A stretch of DNA of 64,000 nt. Origin: Corynebacterium frankenforstense DSM 45800. Lineage in GTDB: Bacteria; Actinomycetota; Actinomycetes; Mycobacteriales; Mycobacteriaceae. Each line of letters starts with the position of its first letter. Positions within the stretch are counted from its first letter, which is position 1. A program made the translations under genes and the position numbers. This document shows, piece after piece, positions 1 through 61,206 of this stretch. The notes under the pieces are model-generated. The model was given only the letters and a program-made list of their open reading frames with translations, searched no databases and was not told where the DNA came from. The stretch spans positions 372,001 to 436,000 of the forward strand of contig NZ_CP009247.1 of the NCBI RefSeq assembly GCF_001941485.1, written 5' to 3'.

Positions 1-1467
1 GTGCTCGTGGTCGGAATGTCCCACCGGTCCGCGCCCGTGTCCCTTCTCGAGCGGCTGAGCATGGACACGGAGACCAAGCACTCCGCCGCCGAGGAGCTCC
101 TCGACGGCCCGTCGGTCTCTGAGGCGATGATCGTCTCGACCTGCAACCGGTTCGAGGTCTACGCCGTGACCAGCGGCTTCCACAAGGGCGTGCAGGACAT
201 CTTCAACATGCTCCACGACGTCTCCGGCGTCGACCTGGAGACCCTGCGCAGCTACCTCTACGTCCGCTACGGCGACGCCGCCGCCGAGCACGTCATGACC
301 GTCACCGCCGGCCTGGACTCCATGGTCACCGGCGAGCAGCAGATCATCGGCCAGGTCCGCGCCGCCTACCAGGACGCCGCCGAGGCCGGCAGCGTCGGCC
401 CGCGCCTGCACTCCCTGGCGCAGGCCTCGCTGCACGCCGGCAAGCGCGTCCACTCCGAGACCGCGATCGACGACGCCGGGGCCTCCATGGTCACCTACGC
501 GCTCGACCACGCCCTGGACATCCTGCCCGCGATTGACGACGTCCCGGTGGGCGCCGCAGACGCCGACGGCGCCGTCGCCGGTGGGGACGCCGCAGGCGCC
601 GGCGCTGACCCGGCCGGCGCCGAGCGCCCGCTGGTCGGGCGCCGCGCCCTCGTGCTCGGCGCCGGGGCCATGGCCTCGCTGGCTGCGACCCACCTGGGCC
701 GTCTCGGCGTCGACTCCCTGGTCATCGCCAACCGCACCCGGATGCGCGCCGAGCGCCTCGCCGAGCACTCCCGCCAGGCCGGGGTCGCCGCCGAGGTCGT
801 CGACTTCGCCGACCGCGCCGCCGCCCTGCCCGGCGTCGACCTGGTCGTCTCCGCCACGGGCGCCGGCACCTTCACCGTCACCCGCGACGACGTCGACGCC
901 GCCGGCCGCGAGCTCGTGCTCGTGGATCTGTCCATGCCGCGCGACATCGACCCGGGCGTGGCGGACTGCCGCAACGCCGGCCTGATCAACATCGAGGGCC
1001 TGCGCGCCGCCCGCGACACCGAGGACGAGAAGTCCGACGCCCGCCGCGAGGCCGAGGCAATCATCGCCGAGGAGCTGCGCTCCTTCTCCTCCGAGCAGCG
1101 CGTGCGCGACGTCGTGCCCGCCGTGGCAGCCCTGCGCCGCCACGCCAACGAGCTGGCCGAGGCCGAGCTGAAGCGCCTGCGCAACCGCGCCCCGGAGCTG
1201 ACGGACGACGAGTTCTCGGCGGCCTCGCGCGCGGTGCACCGCGTCGTGGACAAGCTGCTGCACCAGCCGACGGTGCGCGTCAAGCAGCTCGCCGTCGAGT
1301 CCGGGACGGTCTCCTACGACACCGCCCTGCAGGAACTGTTCGGGCTAGACTACGCGGGTGACGCCGACCGCAGCGTCGCGGTGCCCGCCGCGCACCTGCC
1401 CGCCGGCGACTTCCGCAGCCGGCCCGACGAGGAGGGCCGGCACGCCGAACGCAAGGAGACTGCATGA
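1..1467 (+). CDS. hemA: Glutamyl-tRNA reductase HemA (5' end probably cut by the window)
   Basis: Reduces glutamyl-tRNA(Glu) to glutamate-1-semialdehyde, the first committed step of C5 tetrapyrrole synthesis. The N-terminal GMSHRSAP motif, the catalytic Cys near residue 48 in STCNRFEVY, the GEQQIIGQV segment and a Rossmann motif (GAGAMASLA) near residue 220 identify the family. The frame is already open at base 1 and relatives usually carry one to three residues before this point, so the GTG at base 1 may be an internal Val codon. Residues about 178-213, between the catalytic domain and the NADPH domain, are an Ala/Gly/Asp-rich insertion that begins exactly on a copy of the dispersed repeat (529-555). 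The stop codon overlaps the hemC start (ATGA). Confidence 0.95.
529..555 (-). repeat. Dispersed GACGTCG repeat inside hemA
   Basis: The reverse complement of these 27 bases is identical to the intergenic copy at 38166-38192. It encodes the Ile-Asp-Asp-Val that opens the low-complexity insertion of HemA. Confidence 0.8.
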
Positions 1468-2381
1468 GCGACGACCACCACATCCTCCAGATCGGTACCC
1501 GGGGCAGCGGCCTGGCCACCACGCAGGCCGGCCACGTCCGCGATGACCTGACGGAGGCGGGGTGGGACGCCGAGCTCCACATCGTCACCACGCACGGTGA
1601 CGTCAACATGGCCCCCGTCGAGCGCATCGGCGTGGGCGTGTTCACCCAGCGGCTGCGCGCCGCGCTGGCCGGCGGCGAGTGCGACATCGCCGTGCACTCC
1701 CACAAGGACCTGCCGACGGCCCCCGACGAGCGTTTCCACCTGGTGGTCCCGCGCCGCGAGGACCCGCGCGAGGCGCTCATCGCCCGCGACGGGCTGACCC
1801 TGGACACCCTGCCCGAGGGCGCGAAGGTCGGCACCGGCGCGCCGCGGCGCATCTCCCAGCTCAAGGTGCACCGCCCCGACCTGGACATCCGCCCGCTGCG
1901 CGGCAACATCGACACCCGCATGGGCAAGGTCACCTCCGGTGAGCTCGACGCCGTCGTCCTCGCCTACGCTGGCCTGGTCCGCATGGGGCAGGGCGAGCGC
2001 GCCACCGAGGTCTTCGACACCGAGCGGGTCATGCCCGCGCCCGCCCAGGGCGCGCTGGCCGTCGAGTGCCGCGCCGACGACGAGGACACCCGCGCCGCGG
2101 TCGACTCCCTGATCTGCCGCGAGTCCACCGTCGCGGCCTTCGCGGAGCGCGGCGTGCTCGCCCGCCTCGAGGCCGGCTGCACCGCGCCGGTGGCCGCCCA
2201 CGCCGTCATCGACGGCGACCGTGTGCACCTGAAGGCCGGGGTCTTCGCCCTCGACGGCTCGCGCTCCCTGCGCGCCGAGGGGGAGGCCGAGGCCGACCCG
2301 CGCACCGCGCGCGCCCTCGGCGAGCAGCTCGCCGAGCGCCTCTTCGCCGACGGGGCCGCCGAGCTCCTCGGCACCGAGTGA
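1464..2381 (+). CDS. hemC: Porphobilinogen deaminase (hydroxymethylbilane synthase)
   Basis: Polymerises four porphobilinogen units into hydroxymethylbilane in the cytoplasm. The 305-residue product has the typical family length, with the early [13 protein letters not shown] segment, the HSHKDLPT motif, the RRISQL segment and the conserved Cys of EAGCTAPV near residue 238, which would carry the dipyrromethane cofactor. The ATG overlaps the hemA stop by four bases, so the two are translationally coupled. No irregularity is visible. Confidence 0.97.
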
Positions 2382-2399
2382 CGGTGGGGGAGTGACGCC

Positions 2400-2822
2400 G
2401 TGGCCCGCCTGGAGATCACCGACCGGAGACTGACCGTCGAGCTGGAGTGGTGGGAGAAACTCGCCGCGCACCGCTCGGACCTGAGCGTGCCGCTGCGCGC
2501 CGTGACCGGGGTGGAGGTCCTCGAGGACGTCTTCGCCGACCCGGCCGTCGCCCGCGGCGAGCGCGTGCCCGCCACCCGCATCCGCGGGGTGACCGTCACG
2601 GGCACCTTCGACGCGCCCGACGCCCCCGACGCCGGCCCCGTCTTCGCCGTCTGCCACGGCACCACCGGACGCCCGCGCCCCGGGGTCGCCGTCGATCTCG
2701 AGGGAGTCACGGTCGGCCGCATCGTCGTGTCCACCCCGGACGCCGAGGAGTACGCGCAGCGCCTGCGCGAGCTCGCCGGCCTCACCGACCCGGATGCTGA
2801 CACAGACGGCGGCGAAGAATAG
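2400..2822 (+). CDS. Conserved small protein of unknown function in the heme cluster
   Basis: A 140-residue soluble protein starting at GTG, 18 bases after hemC. It has no signal peptide or membrane segment. It opens with a strand-rich stretch (ARLEITDRRLTVELEWWEKL) and closes in a region that looks like a ligand- or PH-like beta fold with a terminal helix rich in Glu and Leu. I do not recognise a functional family. The short gap from hemC suggests it is the last gene of the hemA-hemC operon; a strong hairpin follows at 3022-3049. Confidence 0.75.
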   Translation: MARLEITDRRLTVELEWWEKLAAHRSDLSVPLRAVTGVEVLEDVFADPAVARGERVPATRIRGVTVTGTFDAPDAPDAGPVFAVCHGTTGRPRPGVAVDLEGVTVGRIVVSTPDAEEYAQRLRELAGLTDPDADTDGGEE

Positions 2823-2959
2823 GCCGGCCCGTCCGCCGGCGCCCATGGCGACTCCACCGCCGAAGACGCCGACCAATGAGCCGCCCGGTCCGTCGGCTCC
2901 CACGGAACGACCCCCGCGCCCACGGTGTCACGGGCGCCCGCGCGCCCGCGGCGCAGACG

Positions 2960-3002
2960 GTGACGGCCCCGCCGACGGCGACCACGGGGACGTCGGAAAG
3001 CG
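2960..3002 (+). repeat. Dispersed GACGTCG repeat, intergenic copy
   Basis: Core at 2989-3002 in the AAAGCG form, preceded by the conserved GC-rich flank. An A/T-rich hexamer (TAATAA, 3010-3015) follows at near -35/-10 spacing. Confidence 0.7.
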
Positions 3003-3021
3003 GACCAGATAATAAGGAAAA

Positions 3022-3049: not shown

Positions 3050-3052
3050 CAT

Positions 3053-7960: not shown

Positions 7961-7972
7961 ATCCGGACACAT

Positions 7973-8063
7973 CCCGGCCGACCCGGCCGACCCGGCCGAC
8001 CCGGCCGACCCGGCCGACCCGGCCGACCCGGCCGACCCGGCCGACCCGGCCGACCCGGCCGAC
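7973..8063 (+). repeat. Ten-copy perfect 9-bp tandem repeat (CCCGGCCGA)
   Basis: Ten uninterrupted, identical 9-base units. The array ends 51 bases before the GTG of the P-type ATPase gene and before its ribosome binding site, so it belongs to the leader. In the ATPase frame it would read Pro-Ala-Asp repeated, but the strong AAGGAGG site downstream argues against it being translated. The 7678-8114 gap holds a terminator and both arrays, and no gene. Confidence 0.9.
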
Positions 8064-8114
8064 GCCGGGACACACCAGAGACACCCGAGACACACGCAAG
8101 GAGGCGGAGACGGG

Positions 8115-10855: not shown

Positions 10856-11029
10856 CGATTGACGACGTCCCGCCCGTCCCCGTCGGCGGGCGCGGTGCGG
10901 GGTGTGCGACGCCGCACCGGGCGCGCCGCGCCCCGGACGGCACGGCGCGCGACACCGCGCGGGGCGCGGTGCGCGGCGCAGGCGGCGCCGGTGCGGCGCA
11001 CGCGGGGGTACGCACGGCGTCGGCAAGCG
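10856..11029. repeat. Spacer bounded by two inverted copies of the dispersed repeat
   Basis: A reverse-strand core at 10856-10869 and a forward core at 11016-11029 face outward-inward around about 145 bases of extremely GC-rich, self-complementary sequence. It fills most of the gap between the P-type ATPase gene and hemE and contains no gene. Confidence 0.6.
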
Positions 11030-12207: not shown

Positions 12208-13773
12208 GTGCGTTACGCCATCATCGGGGCCGGCATCGCCGGCCTGACCGCCGCCTGGGAGATCCACCGCCGCGACCCGGAGGCCGAGGTCGAGGTCTTC
12301 GAGGCCACCGACCGCATCGGCGGCAAGCTGCGCTCGGTGCCCTTCGAGGGCGGCCCCGTCGACCTCGGCGCGGAGGCCTTCCTGGTGCGCCGGCCCGCCG
12401 CCCGCGAGCTCATCGACGAGCTCGGTCTGGGCGACGACGTGGTGGGCACCTCCGGGCTGCACTCGACCGTCTTCACCGGCGGGGTCATGAAGCCGCTGCC
12501 GGCGGGCACCGTCATGGGCATCCCGGCCACGAGCGGGCCGGTGGCCCACCTGGTCTCCGCGGAGACCGCCGCGCGCATCGACGCCGAGGGCGACGCCGAG
12601 CCGGTCGACTGGCCGGTCGGCGGCGACCTCAACGTCGGTGAGCTGGTGCGGGCGCGCTACGGCGGCGAGGTCGTCGAGCGGGCCGTCTCCGCGCTGCTCG
12701 GCGGCGTCTACTCCTGCACCGCCGACGACCTCGGCGTGCGCGCGACCGTGCCGCAGCTCGCCGAGGCCTTCGACGCGATGGTCGAGGCCGGCGAGAAGCC
12801 CACGCTCTCCGGGGCCGTGCAGCGCGTGCTCGACTCCCGGGCCGCGCAGGCCGCCGCGAAGCGTGGGGAGAAGGAGGCGCGCGGCTCCGTGGCCGCGACC
12901 GCCGAGCCGAGCACCAGTGCCGCGCACCCCGCCGGGACGCAGGCCACGGGCGCCGGCGACGGCGCCCAGCCCGCCGACGGTGCGGGTGGCGCCGAGGGCG
13001 ACCAGGACGGCGTCGGCAAGCGGAGGAAGCGCCCCGTCATCTTCGGCACCCTGCGCGGCGGCTTCCGCGAGCTCTACGAGGCGCTCGCCGAGGCCTCCGG
13101 CGCCAGGATCTACCTCGACGCCTTCGTCAGCGGTCTCACCCGCGACGGCGAGGGCTACCGCCTGACCGGCGCCGGCGAGGGCACGTACGACGCCGTGCTG
13201 CTGGCCACCCCGGCACCGACCACCGCCCGCCTGCTCGCGGCCGTCTCCCCGGCGACCGCCGAGGCGCTGGGGCCGGTCAAGCTCGCCGGCTCCGTCGTGG
13301 TGGGGCTGCGCCTCGAGTCGGGCGAGGGCTTCCCGGAGAACTCCGGGGTGCTCGTCGCCGGCGACGAGCCCGGCGTGCACGCCAAGGCCTTCACCTTCTC
13401 GTCGAAGAAGTGGCCGCACCTGGCCGAGCGCGGCGGGCTGACCCTGCGCGCCAGCTTCGGCCGCTTCGGCGACGACGCGCTGATCCGCGAGGACGAGGAC
13501 ACCCTCGTCGACTACGCGCTCGACGACCTGAAGACGATCACCGGCTTCGACGCCCGCGAGGCCGGCGTGGCCGAGATCTACGTGCAGCGCTGGCTCGGCG
13601 GGATCCCGCGTTACGACGAGCACCACCTCGAGCACGTCGCCGCCGCCCGCGCGGCCGTCGCCGAGGTGCCCGGCGTCGAGGTCACCGGCTCCTGGGCCGG
13701 CGGCGTCGGCGTGCCGGCCGTCATCGCCGACGCGCGTGCGGCCGCCGCCCGGCTGCTCGGCCAGGGGGACTGA
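12208..13773 (+). CDS. hemY: Coproporphyrinogen/protoporphyrinogen oxidase (HemY type)
   Basis: A 521-residue FAD-dependent oxidase, in Gram-positives normally coproporphyrinogen III oxidase of the coproporphyrin-dependent heme route. The N-terminal dinucleotide fold reads [14 protein letters not shown], followed by RIGGKLRS; the C-terminal [20 protein letters not shown] closes the FAD site. GTG at 12208 follows AAGGAG; an earlier in-frame GTG at 12190 overlaps that site. Residues about 212-275 are an Ala/Gly/Thr-rich insertion ending on a repeat core (13009-13022) in the middle of the substrate domain. Confidence 0.93.
13009..13022 (+). repeat. Dispersed repeat core inside hemY
   Basis: An exact core match (GGCGTCGGCAAGCG) encoding GVGK at the end of the HemY low-complexity insertion. 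Confidence 0.6.
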
Positions 13774-15229: not shown

Positions 15230-15238
15230 GAGACAGCC

Positions 15239-15847
15239 ATGTCCACGACGATCGTCCACCTCGTGCGCCACGGGGAGGTGCACAACCCGGAGCGCGTGCT
15301 CTACGGTCGCCTGCCGGGCTTCCGCCTCTCCGCGCGCGGGGAGTCCCAGGCCGCGCGCACGGCCCAGGCCTTCGAGGGCCACGACGTGACCCACCTGGCC
15401 TGCTCGCCGTTGCAGCGCACCCGCCAGACCGCGTTGCCGATGGCGCGCGTGACGGGCCTGGAGCCGCAGGTCGACGAGGACCTCATCGAGGCGGGCAACC
15501 GCTTCGAGGGGCTGCGCACCAAGGGCTGGCGCACCCAGCTGATCAACCCGGTGCGCTGGCCGCTGATGGTCGACCCCTCCGAGCCGAGCTGGGGCGAGCC
15601 CTACCGCGACATCCAGTCGCGCATGCTCGACGCCGTCGAGCGCGCCCGCCTGGCCGCCGAGGGTCACGAGGCCGTGCTGGTCACCCACCAGCTGCCGATC
15701 GTGACCGTGCAGCGCTGGGTCGCCGGTCTCGACGTCGCGCACATGCCGTGGGACCGCCGCTGCGAGCTGGCGAGCGTGACCTCGCTGGTCTTCCGCGGCG
15801 CCGCCGTCGCCGAGTGCGTCTACACCGAGCCCGCGCAGGAGATCTGA
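15239..15847 (+). CDS. Histidine phosphatase (phosphoglycerate-mutase-like)
   Basis: A 202-residue cytoplasmic member of the histidine phosphatase superfamily. The catalytic motif LVRHGEVHN lies at residues 7-15, the central Glu lies in EAGNRFEG near 87, and the second His in LVTHQLPIV near 146. Substrate is unknown; corynebacterial gene order places a gpmB-like gene here between hemL and cytochrome c maturation genes. ATG follows AGGAGAC. The ResA-like gene starts two bases after its stop. Confidence 0.9.
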   Translation: MSTTIVHLVRHGEVHNPERVLYGRLPGFRLSARGESQAARTAQAFEGHDVTHLACSPLQRTRQTALPMARVTGLEPQVDEDLIEAGNRFEGLRTKGWRTQLINPVRWPLMVDPSEPSWGEPYRDIQSRMLDAVERARLAAEGHEAVLVTHQLPIVTVQRWVAGLDVAHMPWDRRCELASVTSLVFRGAAVAECVYTEPAQEI

Positions 15848-19381: not shown

Positions 19382-19571
19382 CCCGGCGTGGTCCCGGCGC
19401 CGCCCCGGCAGGCCCAGGGAGTCGCAGGGCGCCGGCGCTGCGGTGCCCGAGGCTCCGCGTGCGGACCACGCCCGCGCCCGCGCGCACGCGGGTCCACCGG
19501 GTACCGGGTCTTGAACTTGCGGGTGTCGAATCCCGAGCCCGCACGCACGCGCGCACACCCGCCCCGCCGTG

Positions 19572-19611
19572 ACGGAACCGCCCACGGCGCGCCGCGCGAC
19601 GTCGGCAATCG
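19572..19611 (+). repeat. Dispersed GACGTCG repeat between resB and ccsB
   Basis: Core at 19598-19611 with a well-preserved upstream flank starting ACGGAACCGCC, the same flank as the copy at 57368-57407. The 19382-19749 gap otherwise holds only a GC-rich spacer and the ccsB promoter region. Confidence 0.75.
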
Positions 19612-19749: not shown

Positions 19750-20787
19750 GTGGATAGCATCGTCGATCCGACCATGGCGACCCTGTCGGACCGGGCGTTC
19801 CAGGCGACGTTCCTCGTCTACCTCATCGCCCTGGTCCTGTCGCTGTTCTACTACGTGCGCGCCCAGGCGATCATCGCCCGCACCCGCCGCCGCACCGAGG
19901 AGCGCGAGCTCGTCACCGTCGGCGCCGGCTCGGACGCCCCGATTTCCGACGTCGCGCCCGGAACCCCCGGCGCAGACGTCGCCGTCCCCGGCGACGGCGC
20001 GGCGGACGAGACGCTGGCGAAGCAGCGCGCGAGCGCGCGCAAGTGGGGCGGGGCGACGCAGTCGGTGGTCTGGCTGGGCATCATCCTGCACGTCGTCGCC
20101 GTGGTCACCCGTGGCTTCGCCGTCGGGCGCTTCCCGCTGGGCAACCTCTACGAGTACATGCTGATGATCACCGCGGCGACCATGGTCGTGGCCACCGTGG
20201 TGGTGCAGGCGCGCGGCAGCCGCGTGGTCTGGCCGTGGCTGTTGACCCCGATGCTGGTGCTGATGTTCTTCGCGGGCACCAAGCTCTACGCCGAGGCCGC
20301 CCCGGTGGTGCCGGCGCTGCAGTCCTACTGGCTGCCCATCCACGTCACCTCGGTGTCGGTGGGCGCGTCGATCGGCCTGGTCTCGGGCGTGTTCTCGATC
20401 CTGTTCCTGCTGCGCGTGTGGCAGCCCGTGGGCGAGGAGCACGGCTTCCTCGCCCCGGTGGTCCGCCCGCTGCCGAGCGCCGAGAAGCTCGACCGCATCG
20501 CCTACCGCCTTGCCGTGTACACGCTGCCGATCCTGGGCATCGGCATCATCCTCGGCGCGATCTGGGCCGAGGCGGCCTGGGGCCGGTTCTGGGGCTGGGA
20601 CCCGAAGGAGACGTTCTCCTTCATCACCTGGATCCTCTACGCCGCCTACCTGCACGCGCGTGCGACGGTCGGCTGGAAGGTCGGCGCGGCCTGGATCAAC
20701 ATCGTGGCGATGGGCACGATGGTCTTCAACCTCTTCTTCATCAACATGGTCGTCTCCGGCCTGCACTCCTACGCCGGTCTGAACTGA
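19750..20787 (+). CDS. ccsB: Cytochrome c biogenesis protein CcsB/CcsA (heme handling)
   Basis: A 345-residue polytopic protein of the heme-exporting, heme-handling family. The tryptophan-rich WWD-type signature is present as AWGRFWGWDPKETFSF near 280, and conserved His residues flank it. It delivers and ligates heme together with ResB. Residues about 50-90, between the first and second helix, form a low-complexity loop in which the codons for ISDV coincide with an exact repeat core (19940-19953). GTG follows GAAGGAG. Confidence 0.94.
   Translation: MDSIVDPTMATLSDRAFQATFLVYLIALVLSLFYYVRAQAIIARTRRRTEERELVTVGAGSDAPISDVAPGTPGADVAVPGDGAADETLAKQRASARKWGGATQSVVWLGIILHVVAVVTRGFAVGRFPLGNLYEYMLMITAATMVVATVVVQARGSRVVWPWLLTPMLVLMFFAGTKLYAEAAPVVPALQSYWLPIHVTSVSVGASIGLVSGVFSILFLLRVWQPVGEEHGFLAPVVRPLPSAEKLDRIAYRLAVYTLPILGIGIILGAIWAEAAWGRFWGWDPKETFSFITWILYAAYLHARATVGWKVGAAWINIVAMGTMVFNLFFINMVVSGLHSYAGLN
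19940..19953 (-). repeat. Dispersed repeat core inside ccsB
   Basis: Exact reverse-strand core (CGATTTCCGACGTC) in the cytoplasmic low-complexity loop of CcsB. Confidence 0.5.
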
Positions 20788-21536: not shown

Positions 21537-22589
21537 ATGCGCATCCTCGTCACCGGCGGCGCCGGCTTCATCGGCTCGAACTTCGTGCGGCGCACCCTCG
21601 CCACCCGCCCCGACACGCGGGTCACGGTGCTCGACAAGCTGACCTACGCCGCGAACCCGGCCAGCCTCGCCGACCTGGACGCCGGCCGGTGCCGCCTCGT
21701 CGAGGGCGACGTCTGCGACGCCGCGCTCGTCGACAAGCTCGTCGCCGACGCGGACCTCGTCGTCCACTTCGCCGCCGAGAGCCACAACGACCGCTCCCTG
21801 CGCGAGCCGGCCGCCTTCGTGCGCACCAACGTCGAGGGCACCGTCGCGGTGCTCACCGCCTGCGCGCGCCACGACGTGCGCCTGCACCACATCTCCACCG
21901 ACGAGGTCTTCGGCGACCTCGCCCTCGACGACCCGGCCCGCTTCACCCCGCAGACGCCCTACCGGCCCTCGAGCCCCTACTCGGCGTCGAAGGCGTCGGC
22001 CGACCACTTCGTGCGCGCCTGGGTGCGCAGCTTCGGGCTGCGCGCGACGATCTCGAACTGCTCGAACAACTACGGCCCGCGCCAGCACCCCGAGAAGTTC
22101 ATCCCGCGCCAGATCCTCCGCCTGCTCTCCGGCCGCCCGCCGCGCGTCTACGGCACCGGCGAGAACGTGCGCGACTGGATCCACGTCGACGACCACAACG
22201 ACGCCGTCTGGGCGATCATCGAGCGCGGCGAGCCCGGCCAGACCTACCTCATCGGCGCCGACGGCGAGGCGAGCAACCTCGACGTCGTGCGCGCGCTGAA
22301 CCGCGCCTTCGGCCGCGACGCCGACGACTTCGAGCACGTCACCGACCGCCCCGGCCACGACCGCCGCTACGCCATCGACGCCGCCTCCACCCGCGCGCTG
22401 GGCTGGACCCCGCGCCACATGGACCTCGCCGCCGGCCTGGCCGGGACCGTCGACTGGTACCGCGCCAACGAGCCGTGGTGGCGCGCCGCCTTCGACGCCG
22501 CCGAGGACTTCTACGCCGCCACCGAGCGCCGCGCCGCGCCCACGGCGCGGGTTCCCGCTCGCGGTGCTGTGCGGGACGTCGGCAATTGA
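21537..22589 (+). CDS. rmlB: dTDP-glucose 4,6-dehydratase RmlB
   Basis: Second enzyme of dTDP-L-rhamnose synthesis. The 350-residue extended SDR has VTGGAGFIGSNFVRR at the N-terminus, STDEVFGDL with the catalytic Asp-Glu pair, YSASKASADH (Tyr and Lys of YxxxK) and NNYGPRQHPEKFIPR. The last residues (about 333-350) run into repeat-derived sequence and end with RDVGN encoded by the repeat core at 22575-22588, so the C-terminus seems to have been extended or rewritten by the element. Confidence 0.94.
   Translation: MRILVTGGAGFIGSNFVRRTLATRPDTRVTVLDKLTYAANPASLADLDAGRCRLVEGDVCDAALVDKLVADADLVVHFAAESHNDRSLREPAAFVRTNVEGTVAVLTACARHDVRLHHISTDEVFGDLALDDPARFTPQTPYRPSSPYSASKASADHFVRAWVRSFGLRATISNCSNNYGPRQHPEKFIPRQILRLLSGRPPRVYGTGENVRDWIHVDDHNDAVWAIIERGEPGQTYLIGADGEASNLDVVRALNRAFGRDADDFEHVTDRPGHDRRYAIDAASTRALGWTPRHMDLAAGLAGTVDWYRANEPWWRAAFDAAEDFYAATERRAAPTARVPARGAVRDVGN
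22540..22588 (+). repeat. Dispersed GACGTCG repeat at the rmlB/rmlC junction
   Basis: Core at 22575-22588 (variant ending TTG). It overlaps the last codons of rmlB and places GACGTC 17 bases upstream of the rmlC -10 box. Confidence 0.65.
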
Positions 22590-26727: not shown

Positions 26728-28683
26728 TCACTGCACCGCGAGCCGCCCGACGGGGGAGCGCCCCACGCACAGCTCCAGCCCGTCGCGCGCGCTGACCTCG
26801 AGCCGCTCGCCGCCGCCCTCGAGCTGCACCCACACCTGGTTCAGCCCCGCGCGCGCCGGCACCGCGACCTCCTGCCCGTCGAGCCGCAGCGCGAACTCGC
26901 CGTCGCGGTCGGCGAAGTAGTTGAACTCCACGACCCACTCGGCGTCCATCAACGGCCCGTCCAGTTCGAGCGCCTCACTGCCGGTCACCCGTGCCCCGCA
27001 GCCGGGATCGTCGCCGGGCACCGTCGCGCGCATCGTCACCAGCCCGGCGGGCACGAGCCGCCCGTCGGCGTCGACGAGCGTGGGCTCGCGCGTCCAGTCC
27101 GCCACCACCTCGTCGCCGCCGAGCCCCGGCGCGATCGCCGAGAGTCGGTTGTACGGGTGCACCACCGGCAGCAGTACGTCGGCGGGCAGGTCCTGGTCGA
27201 GGATCGGCCCGTCGTGGCCGGCGAGCTCGCCGCGCAGCGTCGTCACGTAGTCGTGCGTCGGCTGCTGCGCCCACGACCGCGCGTACGCGAGCGTCGAGAC
27301 CCCGGCCGAGACCGCCAGCGCCACGCCCAGCACACCGGCCGCGCGCCGCCACCGCAGCGCGCCCCGCCCCGCCAACGTCACGGCGAGCCCGGCGGCGAGC
27401 AGCACGGCGGCCTCGGAGAAGTGCCGCAGCGTCAGCGTGATCTCGAGCGCGGTGTCGGGCCCGCCGCGCGCCACGCCGAGCGCGAGCAGCGGCAGCACCG
27501 GGTAGACGAGCCCCGGCACCCACGCCAGCGCGCGCCGCCCGGACCACACGAGCACCGCCACCAGAACGACCGCGCCCGCGATCACCCCCGCGACCCCGGC
27601 GTCGGCGAACGGCGGGCCCGGCTGCCACCGCGGCCACGCCCACGGCCCGCCGGCGAGCGTCGGCAGGAGCCCGTGCACCCAGCCGTGCCAGGTCAGCTCA
27701 CTTGCCGACGGCCCCGTGCCCCAACCCCGCGGGTCCCCGACGGCGAGCGCGTAGACGACGGCCCAGATTGCCGACGCCGCGCCTGCCCCCGCGCTCAGCG
27801 CCAGCACCGCCGTGCGAGGTGCCTCCGGGCCCGTAGGGCGCCTCGACGGCTGGGCGGGAGTCCGTCCCCGTCGGCTGGCCAGGTAGCAGACGAGGAAGCC
27901 GGGCACGACGACGGCGGCGGCCATCGCCCGTTCGCTGAACAGGCAGCCGGCCAGCACGATCGCCGCGACACCCGAAGCAGACCTCAACGCGGGCCCCAGC
28001 TGTGTCGTCGTGCGGAATCTGGTTGCCGCGGTGGTTCGTTCGGCACTCCGGCCACCGGCTCCGGCGTGCTCGCGAACGTCGAGCGTCGCGCGTGAGTGAC
28101 CACGGTGATCAGGAATCCGGTGGGAACCGGCGCGTTTGAGGGTGCGGACCGAGAGCGCGAGCGCCGCGGCCAGGGCGGCGTGCAGCGGCAGGACGTTGAC
28201 CGCGTTGGCCAGCCACGTCGTCGACGTCAGCGTCAGTGGCGTGAGCAGGTAGGCCGCCAACGGCACCGCCGCCCACCGCCCCGGGCACAGCTCCGCGCAC
28301 AGCCAGGCCACCGCGACCGCCGCACACAGCTGCAGCAGAGCGAGCGTGCCGACGGCCGCCGGCCAGCTCAGCCCCGCCGAGTGGGCGAGCACGTACTCGA
28401 TGAGCCACGCCCCGGGCATCAGGTGCCCGTCGTGCGGCGTGGCCAATAGCCCAAACAACTCCTGGGCAGCCAAACCACTCGGCCCACCGGCGTCCGCGCC
28501 TGCGCCGTCCGCGGCACCGTCTCCGACACCCATGGCCTGCGCGAAGAGCGTCAGGTCGTCCCAGTAGAACCACCCGCGCGCCGCCACGGCCGTGCGCAGC
28601 GCGACACCGGCGACGGTGACCACCGCCAACCACGCCACGGTGGTCCGCGCGGTGCGGGAGGCGGGCGCGACGTCGTCAATCAT
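26728..28683 (-). CDS. Polytopic membrane protein, GT-C glycosyltransferase-like
   Basis: A 651-residue protein with about eleven to thirteen hydrophobic helices and a soluble C-terminal beta-rich domain (about 500-651). After the first helix comes FYWDDLTLFAQ, an Asp pair in the first extracytoplasmic loop as in GT-C transferases that use polyprenyl-linked sugars. This assignment is inferred from topology and motif only. Its start codon is embedded in a repeat core (28669-28682), and the N-terminal MIDDVA is repeat-encoded. It is the last gene of the menA - AEC transporter - this gene run, three bases after its neighbour. Confidence 0.75.
   Translation of the reverse strand: MIDDVAPASRTARTTVAWLAVVTVAGVALRTAVAARGWFYWDDLTLFAQAMGVGDGAADGAGADAGGPSGLAAQELFGLLATPHDGHLMPGAWLIEYVLAHSAGLSWPAAVGTLALLQLCAAVAVAWLCAELCPGRWAAVPLAAYLLTPLTLTSTTWLANAVNVLPLHAALAAALALSVRTLKRAGSHRIPDHRGHSRATLDVREHAGAGGRSAERTTAATRFRTTTQLGPALRSASGVAAIVLAGCLFSERAMAAAVVVPGFLVCYLASRRGRTPAQPSRRPTGPEAPRTAVLALSAGAGAASAIWAVVYALAVGDPRGWGTGPSASELTWHGWVHGLLPTLAGGPWAWPRWQPGPPFADAGVAGVIAGAVVLVAVLVWSGRRALAWVPGLVYPVLPLLALGVARGGPDTALEITLTLRHFSEAAVLLAAGLAVTLAGRGALRWRRAAGVLGVALAVSAGVSTLAYARSWAQQPTHDYVTTLRGELAGHDGPILDQDLPADVLLPVVHPYNRLSAIAPGLGGDEVVADWTREPTLVDADGRLVPAGLVTMRATVPGDDPGCGARVTGSEALELDGPLMDAEWVVEFNYFADRDGEFALRLDGQEVAVPARAGLNQVWVQLEGGGERLEVSARDGLELCVGRSPVGRLAVQ
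28669..28682 (+). repeat. Dispersed repeat core on a start codon
   Basis: GACGTCGTCAATCA: the reverse complement supplies the ATG and the next codons (Ile-Asp-Asp-Val) of the 651-residue membrane protein. Confidence 0.5.
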
Positions 28684-30722: not shown

Positions 30723-31589
30723 ATGTGGGTCAGCTACGTCGCCGGCCAGGTGGTCTCCTTCGTCTTCACGCTCTTCCGCCTGATCCCGCTGGCGTGGGCG
30801 AACCGCGTCGGCGGTGCGCGCATCCCGGCCGAGGGTGATGTGGTGGTCTCGCTGACCACGCACGGCCGCCGCCTGGCCACGGCGTTCTACGCGGTCGAGT
30901 CGGTCGCGCGCGGCAGCCGCCCGGCGCCGATCGTGCTGTGGCTGGACCCGGAGGACTTCGACGGGCCGTGGCCGCCGAGCCTGCGCCGCCTGGTCGACCG
31001 CGGCCTGCAGGTCCGTCGCGGCAGCGGCGACCTGGGCCCGCACGCGAAGTACTTCGACATGTTCCGCGCGGTGGCGGGCACGGACACCCGCGTGGTCACC
31101 GTCGACGACGACATCATCTACCCCGAGTGGTTCCTGGAGAAGCTGCTCGAGGTCGGCGGCCTGCGCCCGGACACGGTGGTGGCCTACCGCGCGCACCGCG
31201 TCGAGCTGCGCGACGGCCGGCTGCTGCCGTACATGCGCTGGACGGCGGCGGACACATGCCGGGCCAGCGTGCTGCACTTCGCCACGGGCGTCTCGGGTGT
31301 GTGCTACGCGCCGGCGTTCGTGGACTACGTCGCCGCGCGCGGCGAGGAGTCCCGCCGCGTCGCCCCGCGTGCCGACGACGTCTGGCTGCACCTGTGCGCC
31401 CTGCGTTCCGGTTTCCGCATCCGCCAGGTCTTCGCCAAGCCGCGAAACTTCGCGATCGTGCCCCTGACCCAGCGCGGCGCCCTCGTGCGCCGCAACGGGC
31501 CGGGCGGCGGCAATGACGCGCAGATCGCGCGCGCCTACACGATTGACGACGTCGCGGTGCTCGCCGCCGCGGCTGCGGCCGAGGACTAG
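30723..31589 (+). CDS. Glycosyltransferase-like protein
   Basis: A 288-residue protein with a hydrophobic N-terminal segment (about 1-25) and a single GT-A-like domain. It shows [14 protein letters not shown] early and [14 protein letters not shown] near 130, which looks like the metal-binding DXD site. Similar proteins of unknown acceptor occur in actinobacterial surface polysaccharide loci. ATG at 30723 follows GAGAGGAG at eight bases; ATG at 30696 is an alternative. The C-terminal YTIDDVAVL is encoded by an exact repeat core (31540-31553). Confidence 0.8.
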
Positions 31590-31659
31590 GGCGCGTTCCC
31601 CACGTTTTCCTGTGCAGAAGGGGGCCCCGTGTGATGCGCTCCTTCGACCGTGGAGCCGC

Positions 31660-33522: not shown

Positions 33523-33730
33523 GGTGTCGGCAACCGCCTCGACGGGGCGCGGGCGCTTGCCCCGCAACGTGCGCCGGCGCGGCTACCGGATGATGACGGT
33601 CAGCCGGGGAATCTCGTGCGCCGGCGTGCACCACGCGCCACGTACCGCCCGTGGGCCGCGGCGCCCGGTTCGCCGGCCCACCCGGCCGCACGTGCACGCC
33701 GACGCGCACCACCGGGACGTCGTCAAGCGG
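33523..33730 (+). repeat. Two direct copies of the dispersed repeat before the kinase gene
   Basis: A variant core (GGTGTCGGCAACCG) at 33523-33536 and an exact core at 33716-33729 lie in the same orientation in the 337-base gap between the DoxX and kinase genes. The second copy sits where the -35 of the kinase promoter is expected. No gene is seen in this gap. Confidence 0.65.
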
Positions 33731-36471: not shown

Positions 36472-38132
36472 GCGCGCCGCACGCTGCCGCCGCCCGCCGG
36501 CCGCGCTACCTGCGCGCCGAGCTGATCCGCGCCCGCGGCTCCGCGCTGGCCCGCCTGCCGCTGCTCGGCCTGCTGCTCGGCGCGATCACCGCGTTCTTCG
36601 GCCCGCTCTCGGCGCCCCCGGGTGCCGACGCCGCCACCGTCCTCAACTGGCAGGGCCTCTACCTGACCGGCATGGCCGCCCCGCTCGTCGGCCTCTTCGC
36701 CGCCGTCGCCGAGTCCCGCGAACGCACCGCCCGCGCCGGCGGCACCGCGTGGCGGTCGGTCTCGGTGCACCGGCAGCGCGCCGCCCGCCTGGCGGTGGTC
36801 TGGCTGGCCGTCGCGGCCTTCCACGTCCTCAACTTCGGGGTGACCTTCCTCGCCGCCGCGCTGCTGGGCATGGCCCGGGCGTGGCTGGTCGCGGCGGTCG
36901 GTGCGGCGGCGCTGCTCGGCGCGCTCGGCGTGGCGGGGCTGGCCGCGGCCCTGGCCCGGCGCCGCGGCACGGTCGCGGTCCTGGTCGCCGGCGTGATCTG
37001 GCAGGCCGCGGGCATCGCGGTCGCCGCGCCGTGGTGGTGGGCGCTGCCGCCGACGTGGCCGTTGCGCCTGGTCCTGCCGCTGCTCGGCGTGCAGTTCAAC
37101 CTCCTGCCGCTCGAGCCGGGCTCACCGCTGGCCGCCCAGACGCCCTGGTGGCCGGCCGCGCTGTGCTGCCTGCTCGTGCTGCTCGGCGCCGCCGCCGCGG
37201 TCCTGGTCCCGCCCCGCGAGCGCCGCCCCCGCCCGATTGCCGACGCCCCGCCTGGCTCCGCGGGCGCGGTACCGCCCGCCGTCCGGCGCGGTGCGGATTT
37301 CCGGGACGCGGGGACGGTCGCAGAGAGGCCCGCTGACGCGTTCGTCCATGGGGAGTCCGGGCATCCGGGGCCCGGTTCTGAGCCGGGTGCGCGGCACGCA
37401 CCCGGGGTTGCGCCTGCTGCGCAGGAGCCCATGGTGCAGGTCGTGCCTCGCCCGGCGCTGTCGGCCGCGGGCTCGGCCGCCGCTGCCCTGCGGGCGACCG
37501 CGCGGGTGGCCGCCACCCCGGCGGTGCTCGTCGCGGTGGGGCTCAGCGTGCTCGCGCTGGCGGCCACGGCGGCGGTCTACGACGCCTCGTACGTGCGCGG
37601 CCTGTTCGTCTTCGCGGTGCTGCCGCTGGGCGCCGGGGTGCTGCCCGTGCTGGTCTGGCCCGCGCTGGCGGGGGCCTGGCCGCTGGCCCGGGTGGAGAAC
37701 CCCCGCGTGCCGGTGGCTCTCGTGGCGTGGATTTTCCTGGTCGTCGCCGGCATGTGCCTGGTCGCCGCCGTCGCCGTGGCAGCCGCCGGAGTCGGCGAGG
37801 GCGTGGACCCCGCGGCGGCGGGCGCCGCTCTGGTCCGCTGGGCGGCCGTAGCCTGCCTGAGCGGGTGCGTGCTCGCGGCCGTCGCGCTCGCGCTGACCGT
37901 GCGCCTCGGCACCGCGTGGGCCGTCGCCGCGGCCGTGGTGTGGACGGTGGTCTCGGCGACGCTCGGCGGCGACGTGCTCGCGCAGACCGTGCTGTGGCTG
38001 CCCGCCCTGCCGTCCTGGGCGCAGACCGCGGACATCGCCGCGCGTTTCATCGCCGTCGCCGCGCTCGGCCTGCCGCTGCTCGCCGCCGCGACCTGGGCCG
38101 CCCGCCGCGCCCTGCTTTCCGTGCGTCAATAG
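36468..38132 (+). CDS. ABC transporter permease with two fused membrane halves
   Basis: A 554-residue permease. Two blocks of about six helices (about 20-250 and 340-550) are joined by a roughly 70-residue polar linker (255-323) rich in Pro, Ala, Gly and Arg, so one polypeptide may replace a permease dimer. The linker opens on an exact repeat core (37234-37247). The halves resemble ABC-2-type permeases paired with bacteriocin or lantibiotic immunity ATPases. Substrate unknown. Confidence 0.85.
   Translation: MSAPHAAAARRPRYLRAELIRARGSALARLPLLGLLLGAITAFFGPLSAPPGADAATVLNWQGLYLTGMAAPLVGLFAAVAESRERTARAGGTAWRSVSVHRQRAARLAVVWLAVAAFHVLNFGVTFLAAALLGMARAWLVAAVGAAALLGALGVAGLAAALARRRGTVAVLVAGVIWQAAGIAVAAPWWWALPPTWPLRLVLPLLGVQFNLLPLEPGSPLAAQTPWWPAALCCLLVLLGAAAAVLVPPRERRPRPIADAPPGSAGAVPPAVRRGADFRDAGTVAERPADAFVHGESGHPGPGSEPGARHAPGVAPAAQEPMVQVVPRPALSAAGSAAAALRATARVAATPAVLVAVGLSVLALAATAAVYDASYVRGLFVFAVLPLGAGVLPVLVWPALAGAWPLARVENPRVPVALVAWIFLVVAGMCLVAAVAVAAAGVGEGVDPAAAGAALVRWAAVACLSGCVLAAVALALTVRLGTAWAVAAAVVWTVVSATLGGDVLAQTVLWLPALPSWAQTADIAARFIAVAALGLPLLAAATWAARRALLSVRQ
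37234..37247 (-). repeat. Dispersed repeat core inside the ABC permease linker
   Basis: Exact reverse-strand core (CGATTGCCGACGCC) encoding IADA at the start of the linker; a further degenerate half (GATTTCCGGGACGC) follows near 37296. Confidence 0.55.
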
Positions 38133-38154
38133 AGGCGGGCGCCCACGCCGCACG

Positions 38155-38192
38155 CACGCGCCGACGGCGCCCACCGGGACGTCGTCAATCGC
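38155..38192 (+). repeat. Dispersed GACGTCG repeat between permease and menB
   Basis: Core at 38178-38191. Positions 38166-38192 are identical (reverse complement) to 529-555 inside hemA. It ends three bases before the menB stop codon in a convergent gap. Confidence 0.8.
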
Positions 38193-43929: not shown

Positions 43930-45672
43930 ATGAGCGATTCCCGTGATGCCGCCCCGCAGCCCTCTGCCCCGGACGCGACCGCGCTGGCCGCCGAGGTGGT
44001 CGACCGGCTCGCCGGCTTCGTCACCGACGTCGTCGTCTGCCCCGGCTCGCGCAACACGCCCCTGACCCTGGCGCTGACCGCGCGGCGCGACCTGCGCGTG
44101 CACGTCCGCGTCGACGAGCGCTCCGCCGCCTTCCTCGCCCTGGGTCTGGCCCGCGCGCAGCGCCGCTGCGTCGCGGTGTGCATGACCTCTGGCACGGCCG
44201 TGGCCAACTGCCTGCCCGCCGTCGTCGAGGCCGCCCAGTCGCACACCCCGCTGGTCGTCCTCGCCGCCGACCGTCCCGCCCGCCTGGTGGGCACCGGCGC
44301 CTCGCAGACCATCGTCCAGCGCGGCCTCTTCGGCGGCTACGCGCCGACGCTGCAGGTCGACCACGTCGGCACCGGCGAGGGCGCGGCCGAGGACATCGAC
44401 GCCTTCCTCACCGCCCACCCGCAGGCCCACCTCAACGTCGCGCTGGACAACCCGCTGGTGCCGGCGGCCGCGCCCGGGCCCGTCGGCGAGCCCCGCACCA
44501 CCGCGCCCCGCCCGCGCCCGGTCACCCCGGAGGTCGACCACGGCGAGGTCGCCGTCGACCTGAGCCGCGACACCCTCGTCATCGCCGGCGACGAGGCCTG
44601 GGAAGTCCCCGGCCTCGAGGAGGCGCCCACCATCGCCGAGCCGAGCGCGCCCGCCCCGCTCAACCCCGTCCACCCGTTGGCCGCCGCCGCGCTGCGCCCC
44701 GAGCAGGTCATCGTGGTGGGCCACCCCACCCTGCACCGCGCGGTGCTGCGCCTGGCCGCGGGCGTGCTTGACGACGCCGCGCCCGCCGACGCCGGCGGTT
44801 CCGCGGCGGGGCCTGCGCCGGGCGCCGGGGCGGCGCCCGAGGTGATCGTGCTCAGCCGCACGGAGACGGTCACCGACCCGGAGGGTGCGGCCTCCCGCGT
44901 CGGCTCCCGGGTCAAGACCTCGGGCGAGCCGCGCCGGGAGTGGCTCGCCGCCTGCGAGCGCGCCTCGCAGCTGGCCGCCGAGGCCGTGCGCGCCGGGCTG
45001 GCCGACTCCGAGTACGGCTTCACCGGCCTGCACGTGGCCGCCGCCGTGGCCGACGAGCTCGGCGACGGCGACACCCTCTTCGCCGCGGCGTCGAACCCCG
45101 TGCGCGACCTGTCCTGGGTCGGCCTGCCGTTCGCCGGCGTGCGCACGCTGACCCCGCGCGGGGCGGCGGGCATCGACGGCTCGGTCTCCCAGGCGATCGG
45201 CGCGGCCCTGGCAGCCCAGGCCGAACACCCCGAACTGCCGACGGCCCCGCGCACCGTCGCCCTGCTCGGCGACCTGGCCTTCCTGCACGACGTCGGCGGC
45301 CTGCTCATCGGCGCGGAGGAACCGCGCCCGGAGAACCTGACGATCGTGGTCGCCAACGACGACGGCGGCGGCATCTTCGAGTCCCTCGAGATCGGCGCGC
45401 CCGGTCTGCGCCCGGGCTTCGAGCGGGCCTTCGCCACGCCGACCGGCGTGGACCTGGGCGAGCTCTGCGCCGGCTACGGGGTGGAGCACGCACGCGTCGG
45501 AAATCTCGACGAGCTCGTCGACGCCCTCGTCGACGCCGCCGAGCACCCGCGCTTCCACGTCATCGAGGCGCGCACGACGCGGGCCACGCGGCGCGCGCTG
45601 AGCGAGACGGTGCAGAAGGTCGCCCTGCGCGCCGTCGGTGAGGACGCCGCCGCGCCGGCGGAGGACGCGTGA
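43930..45672 (+). CDS. menD: SEPHCHC synthase MenD
   Basis: ThDP-dependent enzyme adding 2-oxoglutarate-derived succinyl semialdehyde to isochorismate. The 580-residue protein shows [15 protein letters not shown], the active-site Glu in [31 protein letters not shown], and the ThDP-binding [13 protein letters not shown] with the downstream NDDGGGIF. Residues about 279-303 are an Ala/Gly/Pro insertion whose first codons (LDDA) match a repeat core variant (44765-44778). ATG at 43930 is leaderless. Its stop overlaps the next start. Confidence 0.96.
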
Positions 45673-47475: not shown

Positions 47476-47494
47476 GGCCGCCGCGCAACAGGCC

Positions 47495-47536
47495 GTAGGG
47501 GACCGCCGACGTGCTCCGCGCGACGTCGGCAAGCGG
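47495..47536 (+). repeat. Dispersed GACGTCG repeat upstream of menG
   Basis: Core at 47522-47535 with a conserved flank. GACGTC is 17 bases before the menG -10 box. Confidence 0.7.
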
Positions 47537-47558: not shown

Positions 47559-48248
47559 GTGGCTAAGGCAGACCTGGACAAGAAGCCGCTCGACGTCGCG
47601 GGGATGTTCGACGACGTCGGCAAGCGTTACGACATCACGAACACCGTCCTGTCCTTCGGGCAGGACCGCTACTGGCGGCGCCGCACGCGCGAGCGCCTCG
47701 ACCTCAAGCCCGGCGAGAAGGTCCTCGACCTGGCCGCCGGCACCGCCGTGTCGACCGTCGAGCTGTCCCGCTCCGGCGCCTGGTGCGTGGCCTGCGACTT
47801 CTCGCGCGGCATGCTCAAGGCCGGCCGCGACCGCGACGTGCCCAAGGTGTGCGGCGACGCGATGCGCCTGCCCTTCGCCGACGAGACCTTCGACGCGGTG
47901 ACCATCTCCTACGGGCTGCGCAACGTCCACGACTTCCGCGCCGCGCTGCGCGAGATGGCGCGTGTGACCAGGCCGGGCGGGCGCCTGCTGGTCAACGAGT
48001 TCTCCACGCCCGTCGTGCCCGTCTTCGCGACGGTCTACAAGGAGTACCTGATGCGCCTGCTGCCGCAGATCGCGCGGCTGGTCTCCTCGAACCCCGAGGC
48101 CTACGAGTACCTCGCCGACTCGATCCGCCAGTGGCCCGACCAGGTCGGGCTCGCCCGCGAGATCAACCGCAACGGGTGGACCGACGCCGGGTGGCAGAAC
48201 CTGACCCTCGGCATCGTCGCGATCCACTCCGCCGTCAAGCCCGGGTAG
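47559..48248 (+). CDS. menG: Demethylmenaquinone methyltransferase MenG/UbiE
   Basis: SAM-dependent methyltransferase finishing menaquinone. The 229-residue protein has [20 protein letters not shown], motif [27 protein letters not shown] and [14 protein letters not shown] at 47559 fits a leaderless promoter. The bases coding for DVGK at 47614-47627 match the repeat core exactly, but that segment is conserved in the UbiE family and is more likely coincidental. Confidence 0.95.
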
Positions 48249-51326: not shown

Positions 51327-51399
51327 GGGCTCGGCTTCAGAGGGGCGCTGCAACTTCCTCCTTACGGAAGGCTGCCAACGACCATGCCGACAACCAGCC
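51327..51399 (+). mobile_element. Remnant end of an IS30-family element
   Basis: This stretch matches the right end of the intact IS30 element (reverse complement of about 62848-62920): GCTTCAGAGGG...TGCAAC, then GGAAGGCTGCCAACGACC and the transposase start ATGCCGACAACCAGCC at 51384. Homology stops abruptly at 51399, five codons into the transposase, where a 40-bp tandem repeat begins. Confidence 0.85.
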
Positions 51400-57195: not shown

Positions 57196-57367
57196 CCACG
57201 AACGGACCTCGCGCCCCGTATCGCCGCCCGCATTTCATCCGTGCCCGGAGGCGTGGCGCCCCGACCGCGCGTGCCGGTCGGGTGACTGCCGTCCGTGCGG
57301 CGGGCGCGGAAACCGTGCGGGCCGACCGCACCCGCAGGGCGCGCCCCACGCCCCACGCGCCGGCCGC

Positions 57368-57452
57368 ACGGAACCGCCGAGGGGGCGGCGCGCGGCGTCG
57401 GCAATCGGTGGTGCGCGCCCGCAACGGCCTGTGCACGCGGCGTCGGAAAGCG
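57368..57452 (+). repeat. Two direct copies of the dispersed repeat before the tRNA cluster
   Basis: Exact cores at 57394-57407 (AATCG form) and 57439-57452 (AAAGCG form). The first has the ACGGAACCGCC flank shared with the copy at 19572. The 57184-57566 gap contains no gene. Confidence 0.75.
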
Positions 57453-57820: not shown

Positions 57821-57834
57821 CGCTTGCCGACGCC
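57821..57834 (-). repeat. Dispersed repeat core between tRNA-Met and tRNA-Trp
   Basis: Exact reverse-strand core CGCTTGCCGACGCC followed by GC-rich flank. Confidence 0.65.
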
Positions 57835-57942
57835 GCGCCGCCCGGCGTGGGTGCGCATGCGGCCGTCGGGGGCCGGTTAGGTCCGTGCCGGGCGGTTCTG
57901 ATAGTGTGTTGCGAGTCGCCGCGTGGCGACGGCACACGCCAT

Positions 57943-59583: not shown

Positions 59584-59612
59584 CCGACCTGCCCCACGGC
59601 AGCCGTCGCGGT

Positions 59613-59906: not shown

Positions 59907-60332
59907 ATGGCCAAGAAGGTTACTGGCTTCATCAAGCTGCAGATCGAGGCCGGCGCGGCCAACCCGGCTCCGCCGGTCGGCCCGGCCCTCGGTGCCCATG
60001 GTGTCAACATCATGGAGTTCTGCAAGGCCTACAACGCCGCGACCGAGAACCAGCGCGGCAACGTCGTGCCGGTCGAGATCACGGTCTACGAGGACCGCTC
60101 CTTCACCTTCAAGCTGAAGACCCCGCCGGCCGCCAAGCTCCTGCTCAAGGCCGCCGGCCTGCAGAAGGGCTCGGGCGTCCCGCACACCCAGAAGGTCGGC
60201 TCCGTGACCATGGACCAGGTCAAGGAGATCGCCACCCAGAAGAAGCCGGATCTCAACGCCAACGACATTGACGCCGCCGCGAAGATCATCGCCGGCACCG
60301 CCCGCTCCATGGGCATCACCGTCAAGGAGTAA
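59907..60332 (+). CDS. rplK: 50S ribosomal protein L11
   Basis: A 141-residue L11 with [23 protein letters not shown] at the start and the RNA-binding C-terminal domain including [13 protein letters not shown]. It binds 23S rRNA at the GTPase centre. ATG follows AGAGGA; rplA follows after 70 bases. Confidence 0.98.
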
Positions 60333-60402
60333 GCACACCCACGTGGCAGGGCCTGCTCAGGGCCCACATTCGACCACACGATCCGAAAGAGGATTTGCAA
60401 CC

Positions 60403-61113
60403 ATGAGCAAGCGTTCCAAGGCCTACCAGGCCGCGGCCGAGAAGATCGACCGCAACCGTTTCTACCACCCGCTCGAGGCCGCCAAGCTGGTCAAGGAGAC
60501 CGCCACCGGCAAGTTCGACGCCACCGTCGACGTCGCCGTGCGCCTGGGCGTCGACCCGCGCAAGGCCGACCAGCTGGTCCGCGGCACCGTCTCCCTGCCG
60601 AACGGCACCGGTAAGACCGTCCGCGTCGTCGTCTTCGCCGAGGGCCCCAACGCCACCGCCGCCGAGGAGGCCGGTGCCGACGTCGTGGGCACCGACGAGC
60701 TGCTCGAGCGCATCCAGGGCGGCTGGACCGACTTCGACGCCGCGATCGCCACCCCGGACCAGATGGCCCGCGTCGGCCGCGTGGCCCGCGTCCTGGGCCC
60801 CCGTGGCCTGATGCCGAACCCGAAGTCCGGCACCGTGACCACCGACGTGGCCAAGGCCGTCAAGGAGATCAAGGGCGGCAAGATCAGCTTCCGCGTCGAC
60901 AAGGCCTCGAACCTGCACGCCATCATCGGCAAGGCCTCCTTCACCCCGGAGGCGCTGGCCGAGAACTACGGCGCGCTGATCGACGAGCTCAACCGCCTGA
61001 AGCCGTCGGCCTCCAAGGGCATCTACATGAAGAAGATCACGATGTCCGCCACCATGGGCCCGGGTGTCCCGGTCGACACCTCCGTCCAGAAGAACTTCAC
61101 CGAGCAGGCCTAA
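60403..61113 (+). CDS. rplA: 50S ribosomal protein L1
   Basis: A 236-residue L1 of the ribosomal L1 stalk with [31 protein letters not shown] and [14 protein letters not shown]. In many bacteria L1 represses its own operon by binding the mRNA leader; whether the long leader here does so is unknown. ATG follows GAAAGAGGA. A strong terminator follows. Confidence 0.98.
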
Positions 61114-61146
61114 CGCCTCTCGCGCGGTGAGCTGATCACCGTCTTG

Positions 61147-61185
61147 CGCCCCCGTCGCCGGTCTCCGGCGGCGGGGGCGTTTTTT
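61147..61185 (+). terminator. Intrinsic terminator of rplK-rplA
   Basis: A 15-bp stem CGCCCCCGTCGCCGG / CCGGCGGCGGGGGCG with a TCT loop, followed by TTTTTT. Confidence 0.92.
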
Positions 61186-61206
61186 GCTTGACGACGTCCC
61201 GGCGGT
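61185..61206 (-). repeat. Dispersed repeat copy abutting the IS30 element
   Basis: Core variant TGCTTGACGACGTC at 61185-61198 with flank CCGGCGGTTTC running into the left IS end. Confidence 0.6.

Follow-up and report, generated by a model that had tools for sequence, protein, structure and literature searches.

The DNA uptake sequence (DUS) of Neisseriaceae and the uptake signal sequence (USS) of Pasteurellaceae are the closest described systems to the motif reported in this work. The available passages of PMC3630211 describe DUS as words of thousands of copies that accumulate in the core genome, occupy permissive and intragenic positions, have dialects and often form inverted pairs, which are numerous in every DUS genome. 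The same passages of that paper, which dates from 2013, single out Neisseria and Pasteurellaceae as the only groups that require uptake sequences. According to the available part of PMC12616744, USS occur at 31-913 per Mb and also have an extended form. The actinobacterium Micrococcus luteus uses ComEA, ComEC and tad clusters for transformation, according to the available text of PMC8467076. The motif was identified in 64,000 nucleotides of Corynebacterium frankenforstense DSM 45800 (NZ_CP009247.1, positions 372,001 to 436,000), and this whole stretch is referred to as the window. We consider the motif almost certain to be a real signal that is selected at the DNA level. It may be a genome-wide recognition signal of the DUS/USS kind with a role in DNA uptake, an interpretation to which we assign a probability of about 0.45.

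The motif and DUS are alike in being short asymmetric words with many copies on both strands, accumulation in the core genome, and both permissive and intragenic sites. DUS differ in phylum, in sequence, in their many inverted pairs and in having more exact copies. DUS have dialects, whereas dialects of the Corynebacterium motif are only suggested. USS also exhibit a strong core with a weaker one-sided extension, and the density of the motif in the window's genome (about 135 per Mb) falls within the USS range quoted above from the available part of its source. However, the USS core has 9 bp against 11-14 bp here, and the USS flank is AT-rich and lies 3' of the core, whereas the flank of the motif is GC-rich in the window's genome and lies 5' of the core as written. 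The motif exhibits the sequence-evolution features of DUS/USS that were tested, except the inverted pairs; inverted pairs at terminators are a common DUS feature rather than a strict definition, and the motif does not share it. The uptake role is favoured because, to our knowledge, the DUS/USS class shares most of the motif's profile.

Motif, flank and gene context

The motif consists of an asymmetric core, roughly CGTCG-NM-AA-KC (GRCGTCGKMAAKCG in the window's genome), and a weaker 5' flank. The exact core was found 16 times in the window against 0.04 expected from dinucleotide shuffles (maximum of 1 in 100 shuffles), and matches with up to two mismatches were found 72 times against 17.5 expected. 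All 16 exact cores listed by an earlier sequence-only reading of the window were recovered with a single change of coordinate, from 47614 to 47613, and its hand estimate of about 0.02 expected matches is of the same order as ours. Six of its seven near-copies are within two mismatches and the one at 6251 is outside that limit. The flank word ACGGAACCGCC was seen at 19572 and 57368, as that reading had reported, and nowhere else in the window. The observation of a dispersed repeat family is confirmed, and the family is larger than had been stated. The whole contig (2,604,152 bases) has 352 exact copies, divided 170 to 182 between the two strands, against 1 copy of the reversed pattern, which is a strong over-representation on both strands. 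A profile search with the first alignment gave 203 matches at E up to 1, with a best value of 2e-07.

Gene context was assigned using our own simple gene caller across 464 kb with 75 exact copies and 11-13% non-coding sequence. Copies do concentrate in the gaps between genes, as first noticed: 10 of the 16 window sites and 34 of the 75 copies are intergenic, one of the 34 falling right at the border of the sampled region and two lying between convergent genes. Inside genes are 41 of the 74 copies scored, 29 of them antisense. The shared flank that had been claimed is also borne out, and it was located 5' of the core in intergenic and genic copies alike. In an alignment of 110 copies, the 5' side of the core exhibits extra conservation for about 34-40 bases and the 3' side very little. 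Scored with a flank derived from the intergenic copies, 22 of 26 antisense main-frame copies beat the 95th percentile of frame-matched controls, as do 6 of 7 and 4 of 5 copies in sense orientation; three antisense copies in other frames were left out. A flank derived from the genic copies places 26 of 33 intergenic copies above control. In other species the flank is rich in G instead of CG-patterned and has a partial 3-base periodicity that could stem from codon structure. The core at 47613 is probably a chance match, because it encodes the MenG stretch DDVGKRYD that is conserved in relatives and has the lowest flank score (-13.8) of the 41 genic copies scored.

The intergenic enrichment would be expected of a promoter or other gene-regulatory element, and a few sites (22575 and 47522), judged by eye, precede -10-like boxes by about 17 nt. 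The many genic copies, mostly antisense, speak against such an element, as do the aligned sites of a second Corynebacterium genome (G132, described below), only 12 of 98 of which are intergenic, and positions that are not conserved across distant species. We regard a regulatory element as very unlikely. A promoter-spacing idea derived from a few intergenic sites was abandoned once many sites proved genic and antisense.

Constraint at the DNA level

The excess over codon-preserving shuffles, on which the sequence-only reading had staked the family, is large in the 664 kb covered, which is a quarter of the genome. Exact copies number 52 in the coding sequence, where 100 synonymous-codon shuffles give a mean of 2.4 and a maximum of 7, and 38 in the non-coding sequence, where 40 Markov simulations give 0.0.

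Constraint was measured outside the window's own lineage; among 242 genomes of the genus no relative of the window's genome was close enough, the best nucleotide match being 84%, in menG. Over long stretches, the genome G132 of the C. tuberculostearicum group shares 95-97% identity with G005, G004 and G116. A total of 300 kb of G132 was aligned to G116 with codon-position rates setting the expectation, and the results refer to this one genome pair and to sites present in G132, where 98 of 108 CGTCGNMAAKC sites align. The core acquired 15 differences against 51.3 expected (ratio 0.29), and its third codon positions acquired 7 against 35.8 (ratio 0.20). Composition-matched shuffled words exhibit 395 against 389 (ratio 1.02; 5976 shuffled 11-mers, 780 aligned sites), and words one mismatch away exhibit 45 against 46.5, or 25 against 32.9 at third positions. 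The reduction is milder in the flank from -30 to -11 (62 changes against 91 expected). At the two variable positions, the variant CC has 0 changes against 5.8 expected and AG has 3 against 1.5 (3 sites). Across three genomes, core differences in the first 100 kb examined are 0.5-1.6% against 3.9-5.8% in flanks. Unaligned DNA of the G132/G116 pair contains 10 of 108 motif sites against 235 of 1015 shuffled-word sites (P 0.0005); the motif is depleted in unshared DNA and accumulates in the core genome of this pair.

An artefact of codon usage or of a protein motif would agree with the observation that 67 of 68 antisense genic sites of G132 are in one frame, mostly with L-A-D-A-like peptides, and with the few sites in conserved peptides (47613 and 39579). 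It is contradicted by the shuffles of coding and intergenic sequence given above and by a peptide-matched control. The motif codons of genic antisense sites have 5 third-position differences against 25.9 expected, and identical peptides in other codons (27 places) have 11 against 11.3 (ratio 0.98). Such an artefact is scarcely credible.

Distribution along the chromosome and across the genus

The dnaA gene is at the start of the contig. The first 1.15 Mb holds 193 sites; 15 were found in 1.2-1.4 Mb and 19 in 1.8-2.0 Mb, sites beyond about 1.16 Mb being only sampled. The sequence-only reading had raised a strand bias relative to the origin, and none is seen from the dnaA end to 1.15 Mb, where 94 sites are on the plus strand and 99 on the minus strand. 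Chi-like recombination motifs and DNA-translocation motifs like the FtsK-orienting polar sequences (KOPS) are abundant non-palindromic words under selection, and the depletion in unshared DNA would suit either of them. The motif is unlike them in having no orientation bias, a longer core and a flank, and we regard this explanation as very unlikely.

The chief rival to an uptake role is a set of sites for a sequence-specific chromosome protein, i.e. a nucleoid, domain or segregation factor, where density and not position would be selected. DNA-level constraint, occurrence on both strands, core-genome bias and turnover of positions (see below) fit it equally, and the sites are denser in 0-1.15 Mb than in either of the later stretches. 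The presumed terminus (1.2-1.4 Mb) is thinner in sites but not empty, whereas nucleoid-occlusion sites are excluded from the terminus region. The asymmetric core, the one-sided flank and the near absence in 46 of 151 congeners would, in our judgement, be unusual for a housekeeping factor. We take a chromosome protein to be a possible but doubtful explanation.

Within the genus, 75 of 151 genomes have at least 20 copies, 17 have at least 100 and the 46 just mentioned have four or fewer; these counts use the spelling of the window's genome and undercount genomes that spell the motif differently. The 24 genomes from the same order outside Corynebacterium are at background, with 0 to 6 copies against 0 to 5 for the reversed control. 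A plasmid search with one site as query gave no match. A text search for the 9-mer in the open-access literature returned nothing on Corynebacterium by title among the matches listed, and the Corynebacterium patterns in the available part of PMC5217627 are clustered regularly interspaced short palindromic repeats (CRISPR).

At the variable NN positions, the window's genome prefers TC, GC and GA (67, 61 and 42 of 218) and G132 prefers GC (46 of 143). Five other genomes were sampled at 80 kb each, with small counts, and the five top enriched 9-mers printed for G036 and G119 are other words. Species-specific spellings of the motif may exist. A different over-represented word family around CAGTGCCAAAGTTT was observed in the 80 kb of G119 (L291-L294). 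The over-represented words of the low-copy genome G085 were rejected as a motif family and belong to a local tandem protein repeat; at about 14650-15280 of its sequence L209, one called gene contains an extended in-frame run of 12-base tandem units (CCGGAACCGAC and similar ones).

Turnover of positions and mobile repeats

Individual positions of the motif are seldom kept between species. The exact core is retained at ungapped orthologous positions in 2 of 20 cases in G135, 2 of 13 in G119, 3 of 11 in G132, 1 of 10 in G079, 2 of 10 in each of G001, G036 and G012, and 0 of 13 in G085. Identity at the sites is about that of neighbouring windows in distant species. Positions 39579 and 84796 each recur in 6 of the 8 genomes compared, and this recurrence may reflect conserved peptides. 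Of 55 genic sites, 25 have an orthologous window in G135, 20 of them without a gap, and 19 have one in G085, 13 of them without a gap; these are raw counts. Since most of these windows are ungapped, many copies seem to arise by substitution.

Some copies are held by linker insertions, such as those in glutamyl-tRNA reductase and protoporphyrinogen oxidase. A mobile repeat inserted between and inside genes, similar to repetitive extragenic palindromic (REP) elements, miniature inverted-repeat transposable elements (MITE) or Rickettsia palindromic elements, would explain copies in protein insertions (for example 530, 13009, 37234, 146895 and, only in weak alignments, 239306), the extended shared flank and the gapped windows (5 of 25 in G135 and 6 of 19 in G085). 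Such elements are likewise dispersed and enriched between genes while also occurring within them. The motif differs from them, as signs of insertion are few, the folded copies form no stable hairpin and the core is strongly constrained. The ungapped windows outnumber the gapped ones in both genomes, and indels are present within 60 bp of just 4 of the 98 sites aligned between G132 and G116. In a separate look at 33 sites between close genomes, the largest indel nearby has 18 bases. No presence or absence of a fixed-length insert was seen at orthologous loci for sites present in G132. Four copies folded as DNA gave z from -1.14 to 1.21, with no inverted-repeat or hairpin stability clearly beyond shuffles. 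Constraint does not reach beyond the core and some of the flank, and almost nothing is shared 3' of the core.

The REP/MITE-like identity that the sequence-only reading had offered is not supported, given the few indels near sites, the mostly ungapped genic windows and the purifying constraint at synonymous positions, and we judge a mobile repeat improbable. Its two other suggestions, an uptake-like signal and a protein-binding site, both survive, and the uptake-like signal fits best. An insertion element, an idea prompted by HemA, was rejected as unlikely given the rare indels, the ungapped windows and the constraint on the core.

Competence genes and the possible uptake role

An uptake role could work as follows. 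A surface receptor of the competence machinery (a Tad/Flp pilus with ComEA/ComEC) would bind the core and flank, DNA from the same lineage would then be preferentially taken up and recombined, and this uptake drive would keep sites intact and distributed across the shared genome, with individual positions being gained and lost.

The window's genome exhibits the gene order comEA-comEC-holA. ComEC family matches are present in 151 of 151 Corynebacterium genomes, low-copy ones included, and a TadA-family match over the cut-off is present in 145 of 151 (no match in G024, G136 and G142; below the cut-off in G021, G098 and G115). ComEC and the HHH_3 (ComEA-type) domain were tried as discriminating genes and rejected, both being in all 151 genomes. 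HHH_3 also matches a protein of about 780 amino acids, which we take to be Tex, hence HHH_3 matches do not prove ComEA in each genome. The competence machinery is plausible but uninformative, as it is too universal to discriminate.

Four or fewer copies were observed in 24 of 27 genomes with a TadA score below 156 bits and in 21 of 117 others. This cut-off was picked post hoc, with G024, G136, G142, G021, G098, G115 and G124 (split) dropped and ancestry uncorrected, and we give the difference no weight.

Several findings weigh against the uptake role. Inverted pairs are rare, with 9 neighbour pairs closer than 150 bp among 170 sites, 6 of them inverted, and spacing in the first 1.15 Mb is indistinguishable from random (coefficient of variation 0.955 against 0.994, standard deviation 0.071). 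The ComEC (463 amino acids) and ComEA of the window's genome are over the domain cut-offs and under the full-length NCBIfam cut-offs. Copy number is not tracked by the competence genes, as genomes with few copies also have ComEC. The high-copy genomes G001 (253 copies), G135 (60) and G137 (34) gave only two partial ComEC matches, and the drafts G136 (154), G021 (87) and G098 (35) have many copies without a good TadA match. The constrained word is broader than the pattern of the sequence-only reading, because core variants that are not enriched in the window's genome (such as CC) are also conserved in G132. A constrained motif that is biased towards the core genome would also fit a chromosome-organising protein. 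The titles and abstract starts among the open-access matches listed report no such motif and no natural transformation in Corynebacterium, and the gap in transformation counts against uptake.

Coordinates of the copies and other elements of the window

The copies in the window are listed in Table 1.

Table 1. Exact copies and one-mismatch copies of the motif in the window.
Positions	Strand	Exact core	Location and remarks
530..583	-	530-543	Core and 5' flank; in hemA (glutamyl-tRNA reductase), in insertion relative to G135 and G085
2949..3002	+	2989-3002	5' flank and core; between genes
10856..10909	-	10856-10869	Core and 5' flank; between genes
10976..11029	+	11016-11029	5' flank and core; between genes
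12969..13022	+	13009-13022	5' flank and core; in protoporphyrinogen oxidase gene, linker missing from G135 and G085
19558..19611	+	19598-19611	5' flank with ACGGAACCGCC and core; between genes
19940..19993	-	19940-19953	Core and 5' flank; inside gene
31540..31593	-	31540-31553	Core and 5' flank; 3' end of gene, ungapped in three relatives shown
33676..33729	+	33716-33729	5' flank and core; between genes
37234..37287	-	37234-37247	Core and 5' flank; inside gene, stretch absent from only relative aligned
38138..38191	+	38178-38191	5' flank and core; between convergent genes
47482..47535	+	47522-47535	5' flank and core; upstream of menG
47613..47626	+	47613-47626	Core match inside menG, no flank; probably chance
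57354..57407	+	57394-57407	5' flank with ACGGAACCGCC and core; between genes
57399..57452	+	57439-57452	5' flank and core; between genes, upstream of tRNA-Thr
57821..57874	-	57821-57834	Core and 5' flank; between tRNA-Met and tRNA-Trp
22575..22588	+		Near-copy, 1 mismatch
28669..28682	+		Near-copy, 1 mismatch
44765..44778	-		Near-copy, 1 mismatch
61185..61198	-		Near-copy, 1 mismatch

The window also contains an open reading frame for an IS30-family transposase (61237-62862). The sequence beside it (62847-62891) matches 51355-51399 in inverted orientation at 89%; the latter stretch follows tRNA-Tyr and is perhaps a lone end of an insertion sequence. A tandem 9-base repeat of CCCGGCCGA at 7964-8071 either immediately precedes a heavy-metal P-type ATPase gene or lies at its start.

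Implications

If the motif is instead a site for a chromosome protein, it would point to an undescribed DNA-binding factor that acts at hundreds of places. Should it serve as an uptake signal, self-DNA recognition would have another, independent origin besides those in the two bacterial groups that the available passages of PMC3630211 call unique. We tentatively propose that an uptake-signal system may have arisen in Corynebacterium separately from those of Neisseriaceae and Pasteurellaceae. Such a system, with dialects that differ between species and with more than one loss, would be the first of its kind in a lineage that is Gram-positive and carries a mycomembrane, and it would imply widespread unreported natural transformation in corynebacteria. 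An uptake signal would suggest that natural transformation occurs in a genus that has no such report among the open-access matches listed, and the motif would be exploitable for genetic tools.

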